Positions 2,361 through 37,373 of a stretch of DNA of 38,793 bases are shown piece after piece. The notes under the pieces were generated by a model. It did no database searches and was not told where the DNA came from. It saw nothing but the letters and a program-made list of their open reading frames with translations. The stretch is from the IMG/VR virus record IMGVR_UViG_3300005527_000119, positions 1 through 38,793 of that record; one strand, 5' to 3'. The stretch is from a virus. The translations under genes were made by a program, and so were the position numbers. Position 1 is the stretch's first letter. Every line of letters starts with the position of its first letter.

Positions 2361-2693
2361 CTATGGGATAAATAAGTTAAGTTTATTAATTTCCAATTCG
2401 CATTCTTCTTTAGTTCCTAAAAATTCATTACCTTCAAATGTATCACTATCTATTTTAGGACCAAAAAATACAACTTCTGTATCATTATATATGAGACTAT
2501 ATATAAGAGGTATTCCAAGTCTCAACATTTCTTCTTCACACTCTTGACTAGTTCCTACAAATAAGGTATCAGTTGTTGATATTGTAGATTTGCCGTAAAA
2601 AATTCTATTATTGTCTTTGTAGACAAAGCACAATTGGTCTTCTTGTATATCTCCACTAAAACTCCATCCGTCTTCATTTGGCTGAATAATCAT
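2361..2693 (-). CDS. Small protein with an internal duplication, downstream of the giant fibre gene
   Basis: 110 residues made of two ~45-residue copies. Each has a FVYKDNNRIFYG / IYNDTEVVFFG strand pair and ends in a helix with the pattern G-T-(S/K)-(Q/E)-E-C-E-x-E-(M/I) (around residues 48-57 and 93-102). I do not recognise the family. It begins 1 nt after the fibre gene ends and may be translated with it, so an assembly chaperone or fibre accessory is possible by position only. GATAAATT precedes the ATG inside the 3' end of the fibre gene. Confidence 0.7.
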   Translation of the reverse strand: MIIQPNEDGWSFSGDIQEDQLCFVYKDNNRIFYGKSTISTTDTLFVGTSQECEEEMLRLGIPLIYSLIYNDTEVVFFGPKIDSDTFEGNEFLGTKEECELEINKLNLFIP

Positions 2694-2694
2694 A

Positions 2695-5600
2695 TTAAGA
2701 ATTTATCGTTAAAGTTGAGGTTGCAGAATCATAAGAAGCGGTTCCGCTATAATTTACCAAAGTAACAGAATTATATGTTTGTTGAGTAGATCCAGAAAAC
2801 AGTTTATATGTATTACCAACTGATGGTGGTGTTCCCGAAACAAACGTTACGCTTAATGTTGTAGGAGTAAAATTTGCTTGACTGAAACTTGCATCAGAAC
2901 CAGTTCCACTTATCTTTTTAAGAACTCTTAATGTGCCAGCAGATACATTAGTAGTTCCAGTATATGTGTTAATTGCATTAAAGCCAAATAACCCCGATCC
3001 TAATTTTGTAAATCCTCCGCCTCCTCCACCATCTGAAAATATACTTGATGTTGTGATTGTTCCAGTAACATCTATGATTGCTCCACCAGATCTTACAACA
3101 GCACTAAGAGTAGGGAAAGTGGAAGTAGCTCTAATATTCAGCGTACCGCCATTGAAATAAAATGTATGTCTGTTATTTGGTCTACTGTTGGTGTTGACGT
3201 CATTAACAGACAATGTACCGCTAACTAAATTTGTAATTGTGTTAGCGCCACTCAATTGTCCAAAACCTAAATTAAATTGATCTATAATTGCTGACCCCCC
3301 AGAAATGTTTATCGTGCTGGTCATATTAGTATTTGGTGAAGAACTACCTCCACCATGATATATTGATCCTCCGAATATGGTACCGTTATATATGTTTACA
3401 ACAGAATTACCACAAGACCATAAGGCACCTTTAGTATTAAGAGAACCTCCAAACATATTGAGTATTCCTACAGGATTGGTATTATTTCCACCCATCATCA
3501 TACCACCAGATAATTCCACTGTAGCACCACTTACTATATTTAAAGTTCCAATTGCATTAGGAGCTTCCGCAATAGCAAAGGTTCTAGTACCAGCAGGACT
3601 AGAAGTTTGAGTTAATGAACCACTTATAGTTATGACTCCAGTTGTTACCGATGCAGCATTACTAATTTGTATTATAGCAGGAGTTCTATGTGTTCCCGCG
3701 TATGTTAATGTACCAACATTGCTTACTGTAGTTCCATTATTGGACATGTATGTGTTATTTGAGCCTGTTAATATGAGTGTACCTGTTCCTATTTTTAATA
3801 GACCTCCCGTATTTGATGAAGAAAGAGATTCAAATACTACAGTTTGTCCGTTTGTATCTAATCTGATGGCGTTTGTGTTATTTTTAATTTTAGAAGACAA
3901 ATCAGTTGTAATTCCTGATGCAAATTGAAGAGTTCCCCCACCAAATCTAATATCTCCCACTGGTAAATATAACATTCTTAGATTTCCAGAATTGATTGTT
4001 GTATTTCCACTATATGTATTATTTCCAGATAAAATTAAATTTCCAGTACCAGTCATTGTGATACCGTATCCATTACCATTATCTCCAATTGGACCAGCAA
4101 AATTAATATAATTACCAGCTACAGTTGTACCAGTATTAACCGTAAGTGTGCGAGTGCTTCCAAATAGAGTTGTTGGTCCGTTAAACGTTAAAGATTTTTC
4201 TGAAGCAACGTTTGGGAAAGTCGTATTCGCCGAAATATCAACAGTGTTACTTAAAATAGCATCTCTAGTACTAGTTGATCTTATAGAACCCCCATTTAAA
4301 CTCAAATTTCCAACCCCAAAACAATTATCAAGAATAGGTACTATCAAACCACTATCTAATCTTGTTCCTCCGCTATATGTATTATTTGCACTTAACCCTA
4401 GTGCGGCGGTGTTGTTAGTTTTAACTAGTGTTCCTTCTCCGCTAATAATTCCATTGATTATAACATCGCTACTAGCAGTATCAAAAATTCCTATACCTTG
4501 CTCCGGTATAATGAACGATTTATCCGTAGTAATCGATCCGCCAGTATATGTTAATGTTGCTGATTTTCCAGTACTACCAAGCGCAATCGGTAATGCGTTA
4601 TTCCCAAATGGTCCATTAGTAGAATTATTATTAATATTTGATACGCTTATCGTACCTTCATTTACTAACACTTGACCAGCAAATGTATTTTGATTATTTC
4701 CGAGAGAAAGCGTACCAGTGCCATTTTTTACAATTCCACCGATACCCCCATCACTACTTAATCTTGATGTTGTTAATGTTATAGTGCGACCAGATGGAAC
4801 ATTAAAAATCGCTCCACCAGATTTAATTATATACTTTATGTTAGAGTAATTATAAGAGTAATTGTTATTATTTTGAATTGTAAATGTTCCGCCATTAAAA
4901 TTAAATGTATTATCCGTTAAAGCCGCTTGTCCAAAATTTGAAAATGTAGCAGTTCCTCCATTTAAATTAAAAACGCATCTTCCAGCACCTTGCCATGTCA
5001 AAGTATTTGTTAAATTAAATGATCCCGAATTTAAATTAATAATACTGGTTGGGTTTTGTGCTACAACACCACCACCAATAAAAAAAAGTCCTGCTGAATA
5101 AGCACCACCATTAATGTTGAAAATACTAGACAGACCAGCCATCCACGATTGTCCATTACCACCACCACTATTCCACGTTGCACCGCTAAGTAAATTAACA
5201 GTAGCCGATCCACCATTATTTTCTCCAAACATGCAACCAGAAGTAGTTAAAGAAGCTCCTCCGCTTAAAGTTAAATTGAAAGTAGTACCAGCTGGAAGAG
5301 ATATTTGAAAATCTCTTGGACCTCCAGTTGTTCTATTTTGAATGAAAGAAGAATTCCCAGCCAAAGTCATTCCGCCAGTGTCCATTCTTATTGAACCCGC
5401 AACTCGAATAGTTGCTCCTGATAAAGTTATTGTATTTGTACCTTGTTTATAAATACAATTTCCAGAATTTGCAGTACTCGTAAGTGTACCAGAAAAAGTT
5501 GAATTGTTATTGGAATTTAAAGTAATATTATTGTTTTGACAATTTAATGTCCCTCTTCCTGAAATAGTAGCTAAAGTATCCGAACCACCAAGTACAAGAG

Positions 5601-6195
5601 TTGCACCCGAATCAATAAAAACAGGAGAACTATCTGGTATTCTATTTGCTCCGAAAGTTGAAAGCGTCCCAAAAACAACCGAAGTCGTTCCTGTATACGT
5701 TCCAGCAGTTGGTATAATTAAGGTATTCTGTCCTAACTTGGTAACTCCCAAGGCTCCTTGAGATGTATTGCCGATAGTTGGTGTATAAGTTCTATTTCCA
5801 GAAGTTGTGTCAAAGCCAATATTTGAGTTAGCTCTAAAATTAGTAGTATTTCGAAGCGTAAGTACTTCAGCATCCGTTACTGCATTGTAGACGGCTAATG
5901 TTGCATTCGGGGCAACTGCAAATCTTCCATTTGTATTAAATCCCGGCAATGCATTAGTATTAATTATTGACAATACTCCAGCACTAATTGTAGTGTTTCC
6001 TGTGTACGTATTAGTAGCTGAAAGAGTCAAAACTCCGGGGCCGTTTTTAAGTGTACCTATACCATTACCCGAAATTATTTTAGAAAGAATTGTATCTGAA
6101 TAAGTGGTGAAATGATATATACTAGAATTAAAACTAGCTATAGTTCTAACTTGATTAGAACCAGCGTATGCTGAACTGGAATCTGATAAAATCAT
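2695..6195 (-). CDS. Giant fibre/adhesin with autotransporter-passenger (PATR) beta-strand repeats
   Basis: 1166 residues of Thr/Asn/Gly/Ser-rich parallel beta-helix sequence. At least six copies of the passenger-associated transport repeat are visible, following G-x-L-x-L-x-x-x-N-T-Y-(T/S)-G-x-T-x-(I/V)-x-x-G-x-L (for example NTYTGNTTISAGVLSI and NNTYSGNTTINSGNLRML). These repeats are typical of bacterial type V autotransporter passengers. There is no signal peptide and no C-terminal beta-barrel; the protein simply ends in a beta-rich domain. With phage structural genes on both sides, it is best read as a virion receptor-binding appendage rather than a bacterial secreted protein. The start at 6195 overlaps the preceding fibre stop by an ATGA, implying coupled translation. 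The N-terminus (MILSDSSSAYAG) lacks the adapter module of the neighbouring fibres. Confidence 0.85.
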   Translation of the reverse strand: MILSDSSSAYAGSNQVRTIASFNSSIYHFTTYSDTILSKIISGNGIGTLKNGPGVLTLSATNTYTGNTTISAGVLSIINTNALPGFNTNGRFAVAPNATLAVYNAVTDAEVLTLRNTTNFRANSNIGFDTTSGNRTYTPTIGNTSQGALGVTKLGQNTLIIPTAGTYTGTTSVVFGTLSTFGANRIPDSSPVFIDSGATLVLGGSDTLATISGRGTLNCQNNNITLNSNNNSTFSGTLTSTANSGNCIYKQGTNTITLSGATIRVAGSIRMDTGGMTLAGNSSFIQNRTTGGPRDFQISLPAGTTFNLTLSGGASLTTSGCMFGENNGGSATVNLLSGATWNSGGGNGQSWMAGLSSIFNINGGAYSAGLFFIGGGVVAQNPTSIINLNSGSFNLTNTLTWQGAGRCVFNLNGGTATFSNFGQAALTDNTFNFNGGTFTIQNNNNYSYNYSNIKYIIKSGGAIFNVPSGRTITLTTSRLSSDGGIGGIVKNGTGTLSLGNNQNTFAGQVLVNEGTISVSNINNNSTNGPFGNNALPIALGSTGKSATLTYTGGSITTDKSFIIPEQGIGIFDTASSDVIINGIISGEGTLVKTNNTAALGLSANNTYSGGTRLDSGLIVPILDNCFGVGNLSLNGGSIRSTSTRDAILSNTVDISANTTFPNVASEKSLTFNGPTTLFGSTRTLTVNTGTTVAGNYINFAGPIGDNGNGYGITMTGTGNLILSGNNTYSGNTTINSGNLRMLYLPVGDIRFGGGTLQFASGITTDLSSKIKNNTNAIRLDTNGQTVVFESLSSSNTGGLLKIGTGTLILTGSNNTYMSNNGTTVSNVGTLTYAGTHRTPAIIQISNAASVTTGVITISGSLTQTSSPAGTRTFAIAEAPNAIGTLNIVSGATVELSGGMMMGGNNTNPVGILNMFGGSLNTKGALWSCGNSVVNIYNGTIFGGSIYHGGGSSSPNTNMTSTINISGGSAIIDQFNLGFGQLSGANTITNLVSGTLSVNDVNTNSRPNNRHTFYFNGGTLNIRATSTFPTLSAVVRSGGAIIDVTGTITTSSIFSDGGGGGGFTKLGSGLFGFNAINTYTGTTNVSAGTLRVLKKISGTGSDASFSQANFTPTTLSVTFVSGTPPSVGNTYKLFSGSTQQTYNSVTLVNYSGTASYDSATSTLTINS

Positions 6196-7208
6196 CCTAC
6201 AATAATATAGAGTGTATCAGAAGAAGGTATTATGGAATTATAACCAGATTGTGTTATTTGTATCATTTTTGTTAATGCACTTGCTCCTGTTATTCCGGTT
6301 GGATTTGAACTGACATATGCTGAACTTGCTTGAAATGTTGTTTGCCAGCTTGAAGATAATGAAGATGTTGTTGTATATGCGTTTTCCCAAAACGCGGAAT
6401 TGGATCTTACTAAAGTTGTTGCGACCGAATCTCCAGCGACAATTCCAGTTAAATTACTGCCATCTCCATAAAATGAACCTGTAGCAGAAATATCACCTAA
6501 AATTGTTCCGGTTAAAGTTCCTCCACTTAAAGGTAAATAATCTGCTGTGGTGGAAGCCCATGATGCACTCAAACTACTAACGGTTATGTATGTTGATTGC
6601 CAATTAGATGATAATGACCTTACTTCTGTGTCTGGTCCTACAACTCCAGATGCTATAATTCCCGTTAATTGACTTCCATCACCATAAAAAAATCCTTGTG
6701 CGCTTATGTTATTAACATAAGTAAACCCCGAAAGATGAGAAGTCAAATTAGAACCTATAATAAAAGATTCTGAATGATTTAATTGATTGTTTTTACCACC
6801 TAATATAGCACCATAATCACCAATACTCGATATTTTGTTATTTAACCCAGATCCTATTATTGAAAAATCTCCTGCTACATCATTATCTTCTCCGTTTACT
6901 ACTGTAGAACCTCCTCCCGAAACATCATTATTATAACCACCTAGAACTCCAGCAAATATTTGATTTACTGTATTATTTCCATATTTAAAATTAACAGAAC
7001 TATAATAATGATTTAATGTATATGGATAATCATCAGAATTTAAAAACGTTTTAATCGATGATATTGAATTTATTTCTGTTTTTGTAAACAATTTTCCATC
7101 TGCTGTATTAATCCCAAGTTCTCCAAATTCCAAATCACTAAGAACTGGAACAACACCAGATATATTAGATCTTTTTATTAAAATTAAATTCTCGGGTTCT
7201 GACGGCAT
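6192..7208 (-). CDS. Modular tail fibre with YadA-head-like repeats
   Basis: 338 residues. The N-terminal ~45 residues (LILIKRSNISGVVP, then GELGINTADGKLF) form the adapter common to phage fibres and tropism-determinant proteins. Residues ~88-165 carry GGxNN-type repeats (VLGGYNNDVSGG, IGSGLNNKIS, ILGGKNNQLNHS) that resemble the left-handed parallel beta-roll of trimeric YadA/Hep_Hag heads. After this come two SATGSFYGDGSNLTGI-type modules, a PLSGGTLTG fibre motif and W-x-x-x-Y-x-T-x-SSLSxSW heptad segments. It is a paralogue of 15242-16675 through the first ~180 residues. The product is probably a trimeric host-binding fibre, and it is coupled to the downstream PATR fibre. Confidence 0.85.
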   Translation of the reverse strand: MPSEPENLILIKRSNISGVVPVLSDLEFGELGINTADGKLFTKTEINSISSIKTFLNSDDYPYTLNHYYSSVNFKYGNNTVNQIFAGVLGGYNNDVSGGGSTVVNGEDNDVAGDFSIIGSGLNNKISSIGDYGAILGGKNNQLNHSESFIIGSNLTSHLSGFTYVNNISAQGFFYGDGSQLTGIIASGVVGPDTEVRSLSSNWQSTYITVSSLSASWASTTADYLPLSGGTLTGTILGDISATGSFYGDGSNLTGIVAGDSVATTLVRSNSAFWENAYTTTSSLSSSWQTTFQASSAYVSSNPTGITGASALTKMIQITQSGYNSIIPSSDTLYIIVG

Positions 7209-26237: not shown

Positions 26238-26891
26238 TGTTTTAAAACATATAAAGTGTCTATAAAATTTAAATTTTAAAAATAAAAAACATAAATCTAA
26301 AAAAGATATTTTATATTTTAATAAAATCTTAAAAAAATCAAAAACTGATATGTTTTTATCATTTTTATCTGTTATATGAAAATGATAAACATAAACTACA
26401 TATTTTTCGTTATCTTTTTTAGGTAAAAAATAAAAAATATTTTCTTTTTTATTATTAGTATAATATATCCAATAAAATGTGGTTTTTTTATTTGTTATAC
26501 ACCATTTAGTATTTTTACCGTATTTTGCACATGCTTCATAAGTTTTAGGTGTTAAAACTGTTATTAAATCGTTTTCATATATTTTTGTGATTTGTTTAAA
26601 TTTTTTTTGTTGTTCATATTTTTTATCAAGATTATATATAAAATCTTGAAATTCCTTTGAAGTTTTTTTTAACCAAAAAGATATATCGTTTTGTGGACTT
26701 TTTATAATTTTTTTATTTACATAAAACAAAAATTTATTTAATTCGTATTTTGTTTCATTTTCAATATCTATTAGTAATTCAGCATTATTAATATATTTTA
26801 TTTTGGATTGAAGCAACGTTTCGTATAGTTTATTGAACATAAAAGAACCAAATTTGGTTTTAAATGTTTTTTCTTCTAAATTAAACTGCAT
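26217..26891 (-). CDS. Conserved phage protein with TPxTYEAxxKYGxNTKWC motif
   Basis: 224 residues. The central motif (114-131, TPKTYEACAKYGKNTKWC) followed by a Y/F-rich strand pair (FYWIYY, IFYFLPKK) belongs to a domain I know from many marine and T4-like phages without an assigned function. The C-terminal ~45 residues are Phe/Lys/Leu-rich and may be partly non-homologous. It is a single minus-strand gene embedded between the plus-strand lysis-type genes, with its own divergent TATAAATA box. Start at 26891 is supported by that box 12 nt upstream. Confidence 0.7.
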   Translation of the reverse strand: MQFNLEEKTFKTKFGSFMFNKLYETLLQSKIKYINNAELLIDIENETKYELNKFLFYVNKKIIKSPQNDISFWLKKTSKEFQDFIYNLDKKYEQQKKFKQITKIYENDLITVLTPKTYEACAKYGKNTKWCITNKKTTFYWIYYTNNKKENIFYFLPKKDNEKYVVYVYHFHITDKNDKNISVFDFFKILLKYKISFLDLCFLFLKFKFYRHFICFKTSQYQPN

Positions 26892-26897
26892 AAATAA

Positions 26898-26905
26898 TAT
26901 AAATA
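26898..26905 (+). promoter_or_regulatory. T4-late-type promoter TATAAATA (plus half of a divergent pair)
   Basis: Exact TATAAATA, 5 nt before the ATG at 26911. It overlaps the minus-strand box at 26904-26911 within the palindrome ATAAATATTTAT. Confidence 0.7.
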
Positions 26906-26911
26906 TTTATA
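26904..26911 (-). promoter_or_regulatory. T4-late-type promoter TATAAATA (minus half of a divergent pair)
   Basis: Exact TATAAATA on the minus strand, 12 nt before the ATG at 26891, sharing two base pairs with the plus-strand box. The last base lies inside the plus-strand start codon. Confidence 0.6.
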
Positions 26912-27333
26912 TGTTTGGTAAAATTTTACAAAATGTTAAAAATTTAACTTGGTTTTTACACTCTGGAGTTGCTCCAAAAAACGTTCCAGATAGATATAAA
27001 CGAAATTTAGAAGATATAAATCACATGGCATCAAAGAAATTTGCTATGACTATGGTTGCTATATCTATAATTGCGTTTATGTATTTTACTTCGGTTGCTA
27101 TTTTATTTCTTTTTAAAGGAGAGCCTCATGTATCAGCATTAGTTAATATGTACAAAGATATGATTATCTCTGTAGCATCTATAGCGGCTACTTTGGTCGG
27201 TATACAAGGATTGGTTGATTGGAAACACAATTCATCATCAAATGTTGAATTAAGCTCTGAGTATATTAAAGAAGAAATAGTAGAAACATTAACAAATAAC
27301 ACAAAAGAAGATGATTATGAAACCACCATCTGA
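26911..27333 (+). CDS. Holin-like two-TM protein (candidate)
   Basis: 140 residues from the ATG at 26911, chosen because the late box is 5 nt upstream; a longer reading from 26833 would begin inside the divergent gene. Two hydrophobic spans at ~44-68 (FAMTMVAISIIAFMYFTSVA) and ~83-101 separate a basic N-terminus from an acidic C-terminus. It overlaps the endolysin gene by up to 23 bp. Small size, two spans and an adjacent endolysin suggest a holin, but no holin family motif is recognised. Confidence 0.6.
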   Translation: MFGKILQNVKNLTWFLHSGVAPKNVPDRYKRNLEDINHMASKKFAMTMVAISIIAFMYFTSVAILFLFKGEPHVSALVNMYKDMIISVASIAATLVGIQGLVDWKHNSSSNVELSSEYIKEEIVETLTNNTKEDDYETTI

Positions 27334-27928
27334 AAAAGCATTAGAACTACTACTCAAACATGAAGTAGGAGGAGGTAAGAACTACTATGAAAAATATCTA
27401 TCTGGTTTTACATGGCCGGGTGGTGCAAGTGGACCCACTATTGCTATAGGAATTGATTGCGCTTATTACACAAAAAAAGAATTAGAAGATATTTTTCATT
27501 TTTTAGATTCTAAATCAATACAAATAATTCAAAATGCATCAGGAAAAAAAGGAATTTCTGGAAAAGAATATACAAAGATATTAGCAAAATCAAAAATTAA
27601 AGTATCTTGGGAACAAGCATTAGAGATTTTCAATAAGATAACATGGCCTAAGTTTTCTAAAATGGCGGAAACAATATATCCAGATTTAAATACATTATGC
27701 GATGATGCTTATGGGGCTATAGTATCTTTAGTTTTTAATAGAGGAACTAGTTTAAAAGGAGATTCTAGACTGGAAATGAGAAATATAAAAGATTTCATAA
27801 GTAAAAAAGATTATAAATCTATAGCTAATGAAATAAGAAAAATGAAACGTTTATGGTTAGGTAAAAACTTAGACGGATTGATCAGAAGAAGAGAAGACGA
27901 AGCTATTTTAGTTGAAAGTTGTTCATGA
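27311..27928 (+). CDS. Endolysin, GH24/pesticin-type lysozyme-like
   Basis: 205 residues; an ATG at 27317 giving 203 is equally possible. Numbered from 27317, Glu16 in LLLKHEVGGG is the likely catalytic acid. GPTIAIGID (39-47) is the conserved G-x-T-I-G-x-G strand with Asp47, and the C-terminal GLIRRREDEAILVES is the typical GH24 ending. It should cleave the glycan strands of peptidoglycan during lysis. There is no signal peptide, so release would depend on a holin, consistent with the two-TM gene directly upstream. Confidence 0.82.
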   Translation: MIMKPPSEKALELLLKHEVGGGKNYYEKYLSGFTWPGGASGPTIAIGIDCAYYTKKELEDIFHFLDSKSIQIIQNASGKKGISGKEYTKILAKSKIKVSWEQALEIFNKITWPKFSKMAETIYPDLNTLCDDAYGAIVSLVFNRGTSLKGDSRLEMRNIKDFISKKDYKSIANEIRKMKRLWLGKNLDGLIRRREDEAILVESCS

Positions 27929-32865: not shown

Positions 32866-33617
32866 ATAATAATGAAATTGGAATAGGAATATTAGATTTA
32901 TACGATCAAGACAGTCTTGATCGTTGTTTGGAATCTTTAAATGAGTATAAAGATTCAATATTTGTTGCATCTTTGACGAATAATAAGATAAAAACAGAAA
33001 ATTATATAAGATATTCATCGCAAACTCCATTAGCAACACTCAGAAATTATATAATATCTCAATTTAGAATTAAAAATTTGAAATATTATTTTATAATTCA
33101 TTCAAATAACATTATTAAAAATAAAAACTTCGCAAATGACACGATAAAACTCGGAGAAACATTCGGAAGTTGGGTTATTTTTGGAAATGAAAGCAAAAAG
33201 CTCTCATTAGAAGATGAAAGTGGACTAGAATTAAACATTTCTACTAAATTAAACTCTGAATTTTTATTTACGATAAGCGGAATTATTAAAAATAACGGAT
33301 ATTTTGATGAAAGATTCTTTAATGGTAAAGAATTAGACATTATAGACTATTTAATAAACTTAAAAACAAAAAAAGTATATCCACCAAACGGTTATCACCC
33401 AACTATACCTCAAAATTGGTTTGAAAAAACAAATTCACCCATAAATGCTATAGGATATAAAGATCTTCCAGCAGAAGATAAATCTCTACAGCTATCTTAT
33501 GGATATTTTTATCATAAAAACAAATATATACCAAACCAAAACGAGCCACAACCAGCATCTTCGGATGAATTATTAAGTGTTATGGAAGAAATTCAAAAAA
33601 ATTATGCAAAAAAGTAA
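32862..33617 (+). CDS. Glycosyltransferase-like protein with degenerate metal site
   Basis: 251 residues. The N-terminal fold (IGIGILDLYDQDSLDRCLES, LATLRNYIIS) follows the two next genes. Where they have L/I-E-D-D, this protein reads IIHSNN (about 78-83), so the metal-binding acidic motif is missing. A GYFDERFFNGKELDIIDYL segment, comparable to the acceptor-side E/D-rich block of GT2 enzymes, is kept. It may be a non-catalytic partner, or use a different site. It begins on the stop of gene 47 and its end overlaps the next gene by 14 bp. Confidence 0.65.
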   Translation: MNNNEIGIGILDLYDQDSLDRCLESLNEYKDSIFVASLTNNKIKTENYIRYSSQTPLATLRNYIISQFRIKNLKYYFIIHSNNIIKNKNFANDTIKLGETFGSWVIFGNESKKLSLEDESGLELNISTKLNSEFLFTISGIIKNNGYFDERFFNGKELDIIDYLINLKTKKVYPPNGYHPTIPQNWFEKTNSPINAIGYKDLPAEDKSLQLSYGYFYHKNKYIPNQNEPQPASSDELLSVMEEIQKNYAKK

Positions 33618-34395
33618 CGTAGGAGTAGCGATTATAACGTATAATCGACCTGATTTTTTCAAAAAATGTTTTAATTCTATCCCACAAGACAAAATTGATC
33701 ATTTTTTAGTTGTAAATGACGGAGATAAATTACCATTTCATCTCGAAGATACGCAAATAATTCAACACGAAACAAATAAAAACGTAGGAGAAAGTAAAAA
33801 TGACGCAATGCGGTATCTTTTGGACAATAATTGTGATTATATTTTTACTTTAGAAGACGATATTATAATAAAAGATGATAATATTTTTGAAAAATACATT
33901 AATGCATCAAAAGAAACAGGAATTCAGCATTTTAATTTTGGATATTCCCAAAGAGAAAACCTAGATCACAATTTAAAACCAGTTTGGCGTAAAATTATAG
34001 AATATAAGAACTCTAAAATAGTTTTAAACCAAAATATATTAGGTGCGTTTACATTTTATACTAGAAAAGCACTACAAACGGTCGGATTACACCATAAAGA
34101 CTTTAATAAAGGTCATGGAGATCACCTAGAATTGACATATAGAGCATACAAACACGGGTTAACTACGCCTTTCTGGTGGTTTGCTGATATATATGGTAGT
34201 TGGGATATGATTGAAAACCAAAGCGACTTTACTACAGACTCAAAAGTACGAAATCCAGAGACAATTCAAAAATATTTCAATGAAGCTAGACAAATTTTTA
34301 AAAAATTACACGGTTTAGACATATTTGAAGTACCAAATTTAACTGAAACCGAAGTAATAAACTGTTTAAAACAATTAAAAAATGAAATACATTAA
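33604..34395 (+). CDS. GT2-like glycosyltransferase
   Basis: 263 residues from the ATG at 33604 (14-bp overlap with the upstream gene); a start at 33577 is less likely. VGVAIITYNRPDFFKKCF is the GT-A nucleotide-binding start, VVNDGD follows, and FTLEDDIIIKD contains the D-x-D-like E-D-D (84-86). The acceptor side shows KGHGDHLELTYRAYKHG and PFWWFAD. It is clearly paralogous to 34382-35191. The sugar donor and target are unknown. Confidence 0.82.
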   Translation: MQKSNVGVAIITYNRPDFFKKCFNSIPQDKIDHFLVVNDGDKLPFHLEDTQIIQHETNKNVGESKNDAMRYLLDNNCDYIFTLEDDIIIKDDNIFEKYINASKETGIQHFNFGYSQRENLDHNLKPVWRKIIEYKNSKIVLNQNILGAFTFYTRKALQTVGLHHKDFNKGHGDHLELTYRAYKHGLTTPFWWFADIYGSWDMIENQSDFTTDSKVRNPETIQKYFNEARQIFKKLHGLDIFEVPNLTETEVINCLKQLKNEIH

Positions 34396-35191
34396 AAATA
34401 AAATTGGAGTTGGAATAACAACATATAATTCTGAAGAATATTTCAAAACTTTATATAAAAGTATCGACAATACCAAAGTAAACGAATTAGTTGTTGTAAA
34501 TGGGGGAGAAAAATACAATAATAATTATGATTGTGATTGGATTCAACATAATAAAAATTTTTATCCAGCACAATCTAGAAATGATTGCATAACATATCTA
34601 TTAAATAGAGATTGCGAACACATTTTCTTAATTGAAGATGATATGATTATTAAAAATTCAGATATTTTTAAAAAATATATTGAAGCATCAACTATATCCG
34701 GATTAAAATATTTTTCTTTTGTTAGTACAGGTCAAGGTTCAGGTTCAGCTTATAATAGAACACCAAAAACTGTTGTTGAATATAATAATAATATAAATTT
34801 ATCTCTTTATCAAAATATGTGCAATGAATTTACATATCATCATTGTACAGTTTTTAATGAACTTGGTCTTTATGATCCATCTCCAGAGCTTAGAAACGCC
34901 TTTGATATTGATATGGCTTATAGAGAAGCTAAAATAGGAAAATGGACAACTCCATTTTGGTGGTTTCCAGACATATCCAATTCAGATGATTATATAGAAA
35001 ATAATCCAAACGCACAAAGTAGGTTACAATCTGATAGACCGGATGGATCTAGACAACAATTATTGTATAAAACATTTGAATTTTTTAGAAAAAAACATAA
35101 CATAGAAATACAAAATATACCAACAGCAGATAAAAATGAAGTTATTGATAAGTTAAGAAGAATAAAAAATGAAAATAGCAATAGGGATTAA
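34382..35191 (+). CDS. GT2-like glycosyltransferase, tandem paralogue
   Basis: 269 residues. IGVGITTYNSEEYFKTLY, VVVNGG, FLIEDDMIIKNSDIFKKY (E-D-D at 85-87) and TPFWWFPDIS align with the preceding protein, indicating an ancient tandem duplication. An extra RLQSDRPDGSRQQL loop lies before the C-terminal helix. It overlaps its neighbours by 14 and 23 bp, typical of a coupled operon. Specificity unknown. Confidence 0.82.
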   Translation: MKYIKNKIGVGITTYNSEEYFKTLYKSIDNTKVNELVVVNGGEKYNNNYDCDWIQHNKNFYPAQSRNDCITYLLNRDCEHIFLIEDDMIIKNSDIFKKYIEASTISGLKYFSFVSTGQGSGSAYNRTPKTVVEYNNNINLSLYQNMCNEFTYHHCTVFNELGLYDPSPELRNAFDIDMAYREAKIGKWTTPFWWFPDISNSDDYIENNPNAQSRLQSDRPDGSRQQLLYKTFEFFRKKHNIEIQNIPTADKNEVIDKLRRIKNENSNRD

Positions 35192-35954
35192 TATTTTTAA
35201 ATCTTATGATCGACAAACAAGATGTATAGACGTTTTAAAAAAATTAAAACGTCTATATTCAAATATAGAATTGTATAATATATCTTTTGACACTGAAAAG
35301 AATTTAGATAGTGATTTTATTCATCTTCCTTTATTAAAAAAAAGAGCAAAAGATATAATCAACGGATCAATATCTGAAAAACCAATAGCAAAAGAGTTTT
35401 TTGATGTGCTATCTAATCAAGAATGTGATTATTTTTTATTTTTAAATAGTGATATTTTAATTTCCGAAAAACTTTTAAAAGAAATTTTATCAAAAAAATT
35501 TGAAACTATGGTATTTTCTCGACATGATATATACCCACTAACAAGTTTAACAGATAAAATCATTCCTTTTCGGATAGAAATTGCTGGATTTGATTGTTGG
35601 TGTGTAAAAAAAGAATGGTGGGTTAAAAATAATAATATTTTTGAAGATTTTATATACGCAGAACCACTTTGGGATGTTGATTTTTCTTTAAAAATGTTTA
35701 ATTATAGTGATTGTATATTACAAAATAAAGAATTCTTTATAGCTCATGAAAAACATGATTTAAATTGGAATGAAAATTCTTTAGAAGCCAAATATAATTC
35801 TTTATTGTGGGAAAAAACACCATACCACGAAAAGTGGCATGAATTTATATATTCAAATTTAATACATAGAAAACCATATGGTCAGTTTTTGACTCCATTG
35901 GAAAATGAAAATGAGTTACAAAATAAATTTTTAAAAATTTCAAATGAAAATTGA
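35169..35954 (+). CDS. GT-A-like glycosyltransferase (divergent)
   Basis: 261 residues. A basic Rossmann-like start (KIAIGINIFKSYDR) is followed by CDYFLFLNSDILISE (N-S-D at 93-95) as the D-x-D-type metal motif. A FDCWCVKKEWW and AEPLWDVDFSLKMF segment forms the acceptor side, and HEKHDLNW is a late histidine motif. The architecture suggests a galactosyl- or glucosyltransferase-like enzyme, but the family is not named with confidence. Confidence 0.7.
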   Translation: MKIAIGINIFKSYDRQTRCIDVLKKLKRLYSNIELYNISFDTEKNLDSDFIHLPLLKKRAKDIINGSISEKPIAKEFFDVLSNQECDYFLFLNSDILISEKLLKEILSKKFETMVFSRHDIYPLTSLTDKIIPFRIEIAGFDCWCVKKEWWVKNNNIFEDFIYAEPLWDVDFSLKMFNYSDCILQNKEFFIAHEKHDLNWNENSLEAKYNSLLWEKTPYHEKWHEFIYSNLIHRKPYGQFLTPLENENELQNKFLKISNEN

Positions 35955-36684
35955 TTTAAAGCACACTACGATAGTATCTTTAAACACTAGAGATCCGGAA
36001 AACAGTATAAAAGCAATAGAAAGAAGTTCAAAATATATAAATTTTGGAAAATATATTCTTTTATCTGATAGAAAAATTGAACATCCTTTTATAGAAACAA
36101 AAATTATAAAAACATTTAATGATGTAAATGAATATAGTTTTTTTTGCATCAAAAAATTAGTTGATTACATAGAAACAGATTATTGTCTAGTCGTTCAAAC
36201 CGATGGTTATGTCACTAATCCTTTCATGTGGACTGATGAGTTTTTAAAATATGATTATGTCGGATCTCCTTGGGATAAAAGAGTATCTCAATTAGTATTA
36301 CATTTCACTAGAGTTGATATTAATTCTTTAAAATCTATACCAAATATTGTAGGAAATGGGGGTTTTTCTCTTAGAAGTAAAAAGTTTTTACAAGAATCTT
36401 CAAATCTTAATTACGATTATCCTCTTAATGAAGATATGTTTTTATGTGGAGTATCTAGAAGACAATTAGTAGATAAAGGTATTAAATTCGCACCCATGAA
36501 AATAGCAAATAGATTCGGTATTGAGCTTCCACCACATCACGACGAAAAAGTTATAAATTTATGTTCATATTTTGGATTTCACGGAAGAGAGGAATTTAAA
36601 AAACCACTTTTGGATTTATTAGATAATTACGATGATGATATTGAATTTATTAATAATTTAAAAAAATTTAAACTTTTATCTTAA
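35944..36684 (+). CDS. DUF5672-like putative glycosyltransferase
   Basis: 246 residues. VVQTDGYVTNP (84-94) followed by YVGSPWDKR, VGNGGFSLRSKKFL (136-149) and PLNEDMFLCG (160-169), ending with a GFHGREEF motif, is the signature order of the DUF5672 family of O-antigen-cluster transferases. The QTDG would be the donor-site motif and NED the acceptor acid. Overlaps the upstream gene by 11 bp. Confidence 0.8.
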   Translation: MKIDLKHTTIVSLNTRDPENSIKAIERSSKYINFGKYILLSDRKIEHPFIETKIIKTFNDVNEYSFFCIKKLVDYIETDYCLVVQTDGYVTNPFMWTDEFLKYDYVGSPWDKRVSQLVLHFTRVDINSLKSIPNIVGNGGFSLRSKKFLQESSNLNYDYPLNEDMFLCGVSRRQLVDKGIKFAPMKIANRFGIELPPHHDEKVINLCSYFGFHGREEFKKPLLDLLDNYDDDIEFINNLKKFKLLS

Positions 36685-36686
36685 AA

Positions 36687-37373
36687 ATGAACAAAGATTT
36701 TTTAATTTTAACCTCTAACTTTGGTCAAAAAGATTTATTAAAAGATCCTTCCGAAGTATATGATAATTGCGATTATATAGCTTTTACAGACAACCAAACC
36801 GATTTAAAAGTATGGAAACAACAACAAGGGTTTCACTTTTCCAATATAGATAATTATTCAGATCGAAGAGATGCTAAAATCTACAAGATATTAAGTACTA
36901 CCTTTTTCCCAAATTATAAATACATTGTTTGGATGGATGCTAACAAAGAATTAATAGTAAATCCAAAATTAATAATTGATGAATACGGAGATGCGGATAT
37001 ATTAGGTTTCTTCCATCCAGAGAGAAATTGCATTTATCAAGAAATGGAAATAGTTAAACTTCTAAATTTAGATGATAATCAACTGATTAATAACCAAAAA
37101 CAATTTTACATTCAAGATAATTTTCCAAATAATATAGGATTATTAGAAATGTCTTTTTTTATTAGAAAAAATACAGATAAAATAAAACATTTAGAATTTT
37201 GTTGGTGGGAACAAATTTGCAAATTTAGTTCAAGAGATCAATGTAGCTTTATGTATTGTATTTGGAAATTAAGAAATAAAAATGTAATATACTCTTTTAA
37301 AAGATTGAAAGGGTTTGCAAATAATCACGGAGGAGGTAATTTATATTCAAAAGAAATTCCTCATTTAAAATAA
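36687..37373 (+). CDS. DUF616/TOD1-like putative glycosyltransferase
   Basis: 228 residues. CDYIAFTDN (28-36), RRDAKIYKIL (60-69), FFPNYKYIVWMDANKEL (73-89) and FHPERNCIYQE (109-119) are the conserved blocks of the DUF616 (TOD1/MUCI70) group, with WMDAN as the D-x-D-like motif. The group occurs in capsule and O-antigen loci. It lies 2 nt after one neighbour and 1 nt before the other. Confidence 0.78.
   Translation: MNKDFLILTSNFGQKDLLKDPSEVYDNCDYIAFTDNQTDLKVWKQQQGFHFSNIDNYSDRRDAKIYKILSTTFFPNYKYIVWMDANKELIVNPKLIIDEYGDADILGFFHPERNCIYQEMEIVKLLNLDDNQLINNQKQFYIQDNFPNNIGLLEMSFFIRKNTDKIKHLEFCWWEQICKFSSRDQCSFMYCIWKLRNKNVIYSFKRLKGFANNHGGGNLYSKEIPHLK

Follow-up and report, generated by a model that had tools for sequence, protein, structure and literature searches.

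The window, a 38,793-base IMG/VR record, derives from a T4-like myovirus, with matches to phrog_213, 211, 218, 227 and 234. Its genes include those for a T4-type portal (phrog_213, 6e-94), a tail sheath stabiliser, neck and head-closure proteins, a late sigma factor, an SbcD-like protein and a helicase. Transcription around the locus runs in the order portal, o477, o445, o187, o1407, o125, o414, o338, PATR protein, o110, neck and head closure. The open reading frame of the PATR protein starts with ATG and is uninterrupted for 1166 aa. Its gene belongs to the virion gene cluster and immediately follows the fibre gene o338, whose stop codon shares bases with the ATG of the PATR gene (ATGA). Downstream of o110 lie the neck protein (phrog_211, 2.8e-20) and then the head-closure protein (phrog_218, 3.7e-49), which agrees with the placement between phage fibre and neck genes given in the sequence-only reading. 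The features of the locus are listed in the table, and the PATR protein is referred to below as the tip, a placement that is discussed later.

Features of the three-gene locus in the window
Feature	Position	Strand	Support or remark
Fibre (shaft) gene o338, 338 aa, with C-terminal dock	6192..7208	-	Homologue in L014
Dock, last ~45 codons of o338, ...TGITGASALTKMIQITQSGYNSIIPSSDTLYIIVG	6195..6329	-	Conserved in fibre alignment
PATR protein, putative fibre tip	2695..6195	-	1166 aa; PF12951 and TIGR02601 matches; AlphaFold2 all-beta model
Phage-specific N-terminal segment of tip (residues 1-46)	6058..6195	-	Alignments of relatives' tips
PATR unit 1 (residues 50-77)	5965..6048	-	42.7 bits
PATR unit	5662..5745	-	16.8 bits, under cut-off
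PATR unit	4642..4734	-	31.3 bits
PATR unit, partial	4348..4401	-	18.7 bits, under cut-off
PATR unit	3976..4059	-	41.8 bits
PATR unit	3706..3801	-	15.9 bits, under cut-off
Last PATR unit	2923..3012	-	33.4 bits
Conserved C-terminal domain of tip (residues 1092-1166), ...NTYKLFSGSTQQTYNSVTLVNYSGTASYDSATSTLTINS	2698..2922	-	Alignment
o110, small partner protein after tip	2361..2693	-	Same-place homologues in relatives

PATR repeats had been proposed from the letters of this protein, and the profile searches confirmed them in two independent libraries. The 1166-aa protein matched PF12951 with an E value of 1.3e-21 (76.8 bits; cut-off 27) and TIGR02601 with an E value of 5e-24 (83.7 bits; cut-off 19.85). 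Seven separate PATR units were resolved, four of them above the curated cut-off, and they are scattered along the protein and form no tight tandem array. The combined content of N, T, S and G was 53% in the PATR protein, compared with 51% in the fibre o414 and 41% in o1407. Because these N/T/S/G-rich neighbours gave no PATR match in the profile search, the match is not an artefact of composition. An internal duplication was considered and rejected, since no self-match was found at E<1e-3 after composition correction. The signal peptide and the beta-barrel, both of which had been described as missing, were indeed absent. Residues 1 to 60 contain no hydrophobic stretch (Kyte-Doolittle mean of at most 0.97 over 12 residues), and the N-terminus is conserved as polar among relatives; no barrel domain was detected, and PATR was the only Pfam family matched at E<0.01. 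By profile, the repeat is the same as that of Ssp from Serratia marcescens and of IcsA. In contrast to these PATR autotransporters, the phage tip has no signal peptide, barrel or exporter, and thus neither the export signal nor the barrel translocator of a classical (type Va) autotransporter. It also belongs to a fibre operon and has phage-specific ends, with a start of about 45 aa and a C-terminal end of about 75 aa.

We also examined structure models of the tip. The AlphaFold2 model of the 1166-aa protein was all-beta and of moderate quality (pLDDT 68.9), and that of a 286-aa relative (L014) was all-beta with a pLDDT of 82.5, its C-terminal domain being modelled at pLDDT 89-96. The fold search ranked autotransporter passengers first. 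The best solved-structure matches of the window protein model were antigen 43, EspC and fusolisin, and the best match of the 286-aa relative was the fusolisin passenger (prob 0.94, E 0.05), with Ssp and IcsA lower; the fold matches were weak for both models, none reaching E<0.001. A family-profile search of solved chains returned only Ssp (8e7f), IcsA and fusolisin. At residue level, the beta-helix of the tip is a prediction; the models are those of monomers, and most fibres are trimers.

The protein encoded immediately upstream, o338, ends in a dock of about 40 residues terminating in NTLYIIVG. Proteins upstream of tips nearly always share an end of this length (GATQLTNMMQITSAGYSAITSPAANTLYIIVG or similar), and the dock was conserved across 41 aligned fibres. 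At the dock position, relatives gave weak matches to PF24243 Phage_tail_C (E 0.026-0.066, under the cut-off), and the dock is likely a divergent member of this family. The fibre bodies that bear the dock were related in 34 of 39 cases, forming one linked cluster, with five outside it, including that of L169. Selection by the dock alone returned 79 loci, in which a PATR-type tip came next in 72 (69 flagged by script and three more by eye), was missing in three and was cut by the contig end in four. Accordingly, 72 of the 75 readable dock loci continue into a PATR tip. Dock fibres without a tip were observed in L289, L290 and L162 (4383-4505), where a small membrane, holin-like gene comes next. 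The o338 homologue of the T4-like contig L014 showed 65% identity. In three other T4-like contigs (L029, L031 and L049), N-terminal homologues of o338 were found without the dock, the PATR tip and o110, and an o1407-type protein was present instead. The joint absence of all three elements from these contigs means that dock, tip and partner are gained and lost as a set.

The third gene, o110, follows the tip gene after a 1-nt gap in the window and with a 4-nt overlap in most relatives. Homologues occupy the corresponding position in L008, L009, L014, L063, L064, L076 and most other cassette loci, and no Pfam or PHROG family was matched. Tips without a downstream o110 occur in L126, L128, L145 and L146; in such cases the partner is either dispensable or encoded elsewhere. 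In L009 (712-1374), the partner is enlarged to 220 aa through a repeated FFGP...NEFLGTKEECE unit, and from its sequence the small partner itself can apparently be a repeat protein. Dock fibre, PATR tip and small partner form a cassette whose genes overlap or nearly touch, the tip starting in the stop codon of the dock fibre and the partner usually in the stop codon of the tip. This order with overlapping codons was seen in dozens of contigs. The arrangement bears on whether the PATR protein could be a nonvirion protein that is secreted or released late in infection, for example coating debris or altering host adhesion. PATR is otherwise known from exported proteins, and some cassettes adjoin lysis-type genes. 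However, the tip has no signal peptide, and its gene shares a start/stop overlap with the fibre gene and is linked to the fibre C-terminus, which makes a secreted role extremely improbable.

For the position beside the neck gene, 44 contigs were compared whose neck protein has 66-88% identity to that of the window. Next to this nearly constant neck, the content of the slot was highly variable. It held a PATR tip in L009, L014 and L015 and o1407-type proteins in L029, L031, L049 and others, and it was absent in L019, L024 and L027, in which the portal directly adjoins the neck. PATR was present in 4 of the 45 records compared, a count that includes L008, a record retrieved with the tip as query. 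The slot of another T4-like contig (L011, 5734-9993) holds a 1419-aa protein with 26 RCC1 repeats of the beta-propeller type, another borrowed-looking repeat scaffold in a fibre position. The fibre region of L014, which also holds a short PATR tip, encodes a protein of 237 aa (5396-6109) that has BspA-like leucine-rich repeats (LTSVTIPNSVTSIG...).

The tip was more widespread than these T4-like relatives. A search with o110 returned two contigs with the same gene trio and without T4-type neck and portal. A search with the N-terminal segment of the tip returned 44 homologues in viral contigs (L126-L169), plus some more distant ones. Together with the dock set (an overlap of about 19 by contig name), about 95 distinct IMG/VR contigs carry the tip. 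A DNA-pattern scan for NTYTG recovered genuine cassettes in L076, L081 and L075/L094; most of its matches were rejected as unrelated proteins with a chance motif. Complete tips ranged from 281 to 1166 aa, that of the window being the longest, and PF12951 was matched by the tips of all 20 relatives tested. The T4 portal was found in none of 47 other cassette-bearing contigs, many of them fragments, in a search run without a positive control. In L129 (6700-8107), a tip stands directly behind an o110-type partner and not behind a dock fibre; a dock-tip-partner set lies just upstream (L293), giving two tips in tandem. A variant in L170-L174 comprises 378-aa PATR proteins beginning MSTYIKAYLGTTPLF, behind fibres ending NTIYFIKQ. 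In L173 and L174, a further stretch lies behind the variant; it has the C-terminus typical of tips and looks like the remnant of a replaced tip. Among 50,697 phage records, no match was found to full-length tips and o110, nor to a PATR consensus, which as a short low-complexity query is a weak test. No paper on phage fibres built of PATR turned up in the literature library that was searched. Among the weak fold matches from a viral library was a protein of an uncultured phage under the name 'Autotransporter beta-domain containing protein'; proteins of this kind had therefore already received annotations, though not with the present context.

To compare the lineages that carry the cassette, 15 records were examined gene by gene. 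At least five lineages were distinguished, with GC contents of 29 to 60% and including both T4-like phages and siphophages. They are the T4-like lineage of the window, G007 (L014) and G001, which also includes G048 and G084 at a greater distance; G047/G065, with a lambda-type terminase, portal and tape measure in G047; G066/G078/G087, to which G052/G080 are weakly related; G074/G075; and G088. At the threshold used, G088 and G007 had exactly one protein in common, the tip, with 79% identity, and the G088 tip is the closest relative of the L014 tip. The genome GC content is 56% in G088 versus 32% in this T4-like relative, and the G088 tip has a GC3 of 0.29 inside its 56% GC phage. Likewise, the G047 tip (L127) has a GC3 of 0.30 in surroundings of 52%. 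Because the tip is the only shared protein of G088 and G007 and the GC3 of the G088 and G047 tips deviates from their genomes, genome comparison establishes transfer of tips between phages, and some of the exchange was probably recent. In the window, a run of glycosyltransferase-type genes lies at 33577-37373 on the plus strand, and the protein at 35944-36684 within it has relatives in the otherwise unrelated cassette phages G074 and G047. In addition, the G074 counterparts show 67% identity to the lysozyme-like protein of the window (27311-27928) and 36% to its neighbour (26833-27333); lysis genes may also have been exchanged between the window lineage and the cassette-bearing G074 lineage.

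We next considered a bacterial origin. The sequence-only reading had suggested the transfer of a bacterial adhesin scaffold into a phage receptor-binding appendage. The scaffold part of this suggestion holds to the extent that a PATR scaffold occupies a fibre position, in the slot expected of a receptor-binding tip, and the phage repeats very probably share ancestry with those of bacteria. A bacterium-to-phage transfer at this locus was not supported: the tip belongs to a phage family with its own ends, dock and third gene, its codon usage is that of its own genome, and the visible transfers run between phages. The GC3 of the PATR gene was 0.181 against 0.11-0.22 in the other genes of the window, and this agreement indicates that the copy is adjusted to its genome. 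A recent capture of an autotransporter passenger from the bacterial host of the window phage would fit the frequency of PATR in such passengers and the nearest plasmid proteins, from Azospirillum, Methylobacterium and Acetobacter, which are named 'autotransporter-associated beta strand repeat' and showed 32-39% identity over parts of the tip. However, this identity is low and partial, the ends of the tip look phage-specific, its GC3 matches the phage and about 95 phage homologues exist, so that a recent capture is very improbable. In 84,980 bacterial and archaeal GTDB genomes, the N-terminal segment of the tip gave 52 candidate stretches and the C-terminal segment 26, none of which was confirmed; each segment was represented by one short degenerate pattern, which a distant bacterial donor could escape.

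Sequenced isolates provided a comparison for the position of the tip. Four sequenced phages have dock-like fibre ends, which were weakly similar by sequence (E 0.03-0.9). The fibre ends of S-CBS2 and Phlei matched PF24243 clearly (E of 1e-9 and 2e-11), whereas the match of Cellulophaga phage phi17:2 was under the cut-off, as it was for the dock of the window family. In all four isolates, the next gene begins immediately after the dock-like fibre; it is annotated as 'tail fiber protein' in S-CBS2, as 'minor tail protein' in Phlei and as hypothetical in the other two. As in the window, S-CBS2 gp32-gp33 (Synechococcus) and Phlei gp04-gp05 (Mycobacterium) combine a fibre with a short C-terminal dock and a tip gene directly next. 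Their tip bodies are of the DUF7483 or glycine-rich type, whereas PATR is found here, and no o110-like third gene was seen in these isolates. A correspondence between the tip N-terminus and the GSxxVxxIYxGSxxVW start of the isolate tips was not significant (hhalign probability 1.9) and was rejected. By analogy with these dock fibres, the PATR protein would be placed at the fibre tip. A further comparison is offered by Alteromonas phages A5 and V22, in which a tail fibre and chaperone module is common to distantly related phages (PMC10579305). Like the cassette, this module is a host-recognition block of distantly related phages with a fibre gene and a cognate chaperone gene; it differs in that its proteins are others and lack PATR, and the chaperone role in the present cassette is a predicted one.

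The mounting site of the cassette was considered in relation to its neighbours. In T4, the whisker gene wac adjoins the neck gene. The cassette of the window likewise lies directly upstream of a neck gene, and that of the siphophage G047 lies between putative head genes and tail genes, as might be expected of a whisker-like head or neck fibre or a decoration adhesin, mounted on the neck or capsid and aiding adhesion rather than making the primary receptor choice. In other lineages, however, the cassettes adjoin lysis-type or minor-tail-type genes, and in isolates the annotation given to related dock fibres is that of a tail protein. Because the neighbours differ among lineages, gene position does not fix the mounting site, and we consider a head or neck fibre rather unlikely.

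We favour the reading, with a probability of about 0.75, that the PATR protein is the mobile, receptor-binding distal tip of a virion fibre, built on a PATR beta-helix scaffold and exchanged as part of a three-gene cassette. According to this model, the phage-specific N-terminal segment of the tip would seat in the dock at the end of o338. The PATR units and the intervening beta segments would form a beta-helical rod that offers its loops to the host surface, and the conserved C-terminal beta domain would cap the rod. The third protein would be the partner cognate to the tip and would most likely act as a chaperone of assembly or as a cap. Phages would change hosts by swapping dock, tip and partner as a block, and also by gain or loss of rod segments, over the range of tip lengths from 281 to 1166 aa. 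A more specific version, in which PATR tips grip the PATR autotransporters of the host by beta-helix pairing, like the self-associating antigen 43, with rod length tuned through gain and loss of repeat segments, appears quite improbable.

PATR, which was named for passenger transport, thus also serves without autotransport. According to PMC9977779, which cites Doyle et al. 2015, a role of PATR in secretion efficiency has been reported; such a role is unlikely in the phage, given that the tip comes with neither an exporter nor a signal. The simplest common denominator of the PATR roles would be beta-helix folding. Because PATR is also used where no autotransport occurs, it appears to be a beta-helix building unit at heart. 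The PATR tip is more widespread and more structured than the sequence-only reading had seen, and the transfer story should be recast around a mobile family of phage tips whose underlying repeat also occurs in bacterial adhesins. It looks like an established exchangeable part for host recognition, not a one-off theft from a bacterium. Exchangeable fibre tips were already known; those based on PATR form an uncharacterised family of them, recognisable by its dock and third gene, that is common in uncultured phages, while none turned up among the sequenced isolates that were searched. With the dock signature, receptor-binding tips could be located in metagenomes and their movement between unrelated phages studied.
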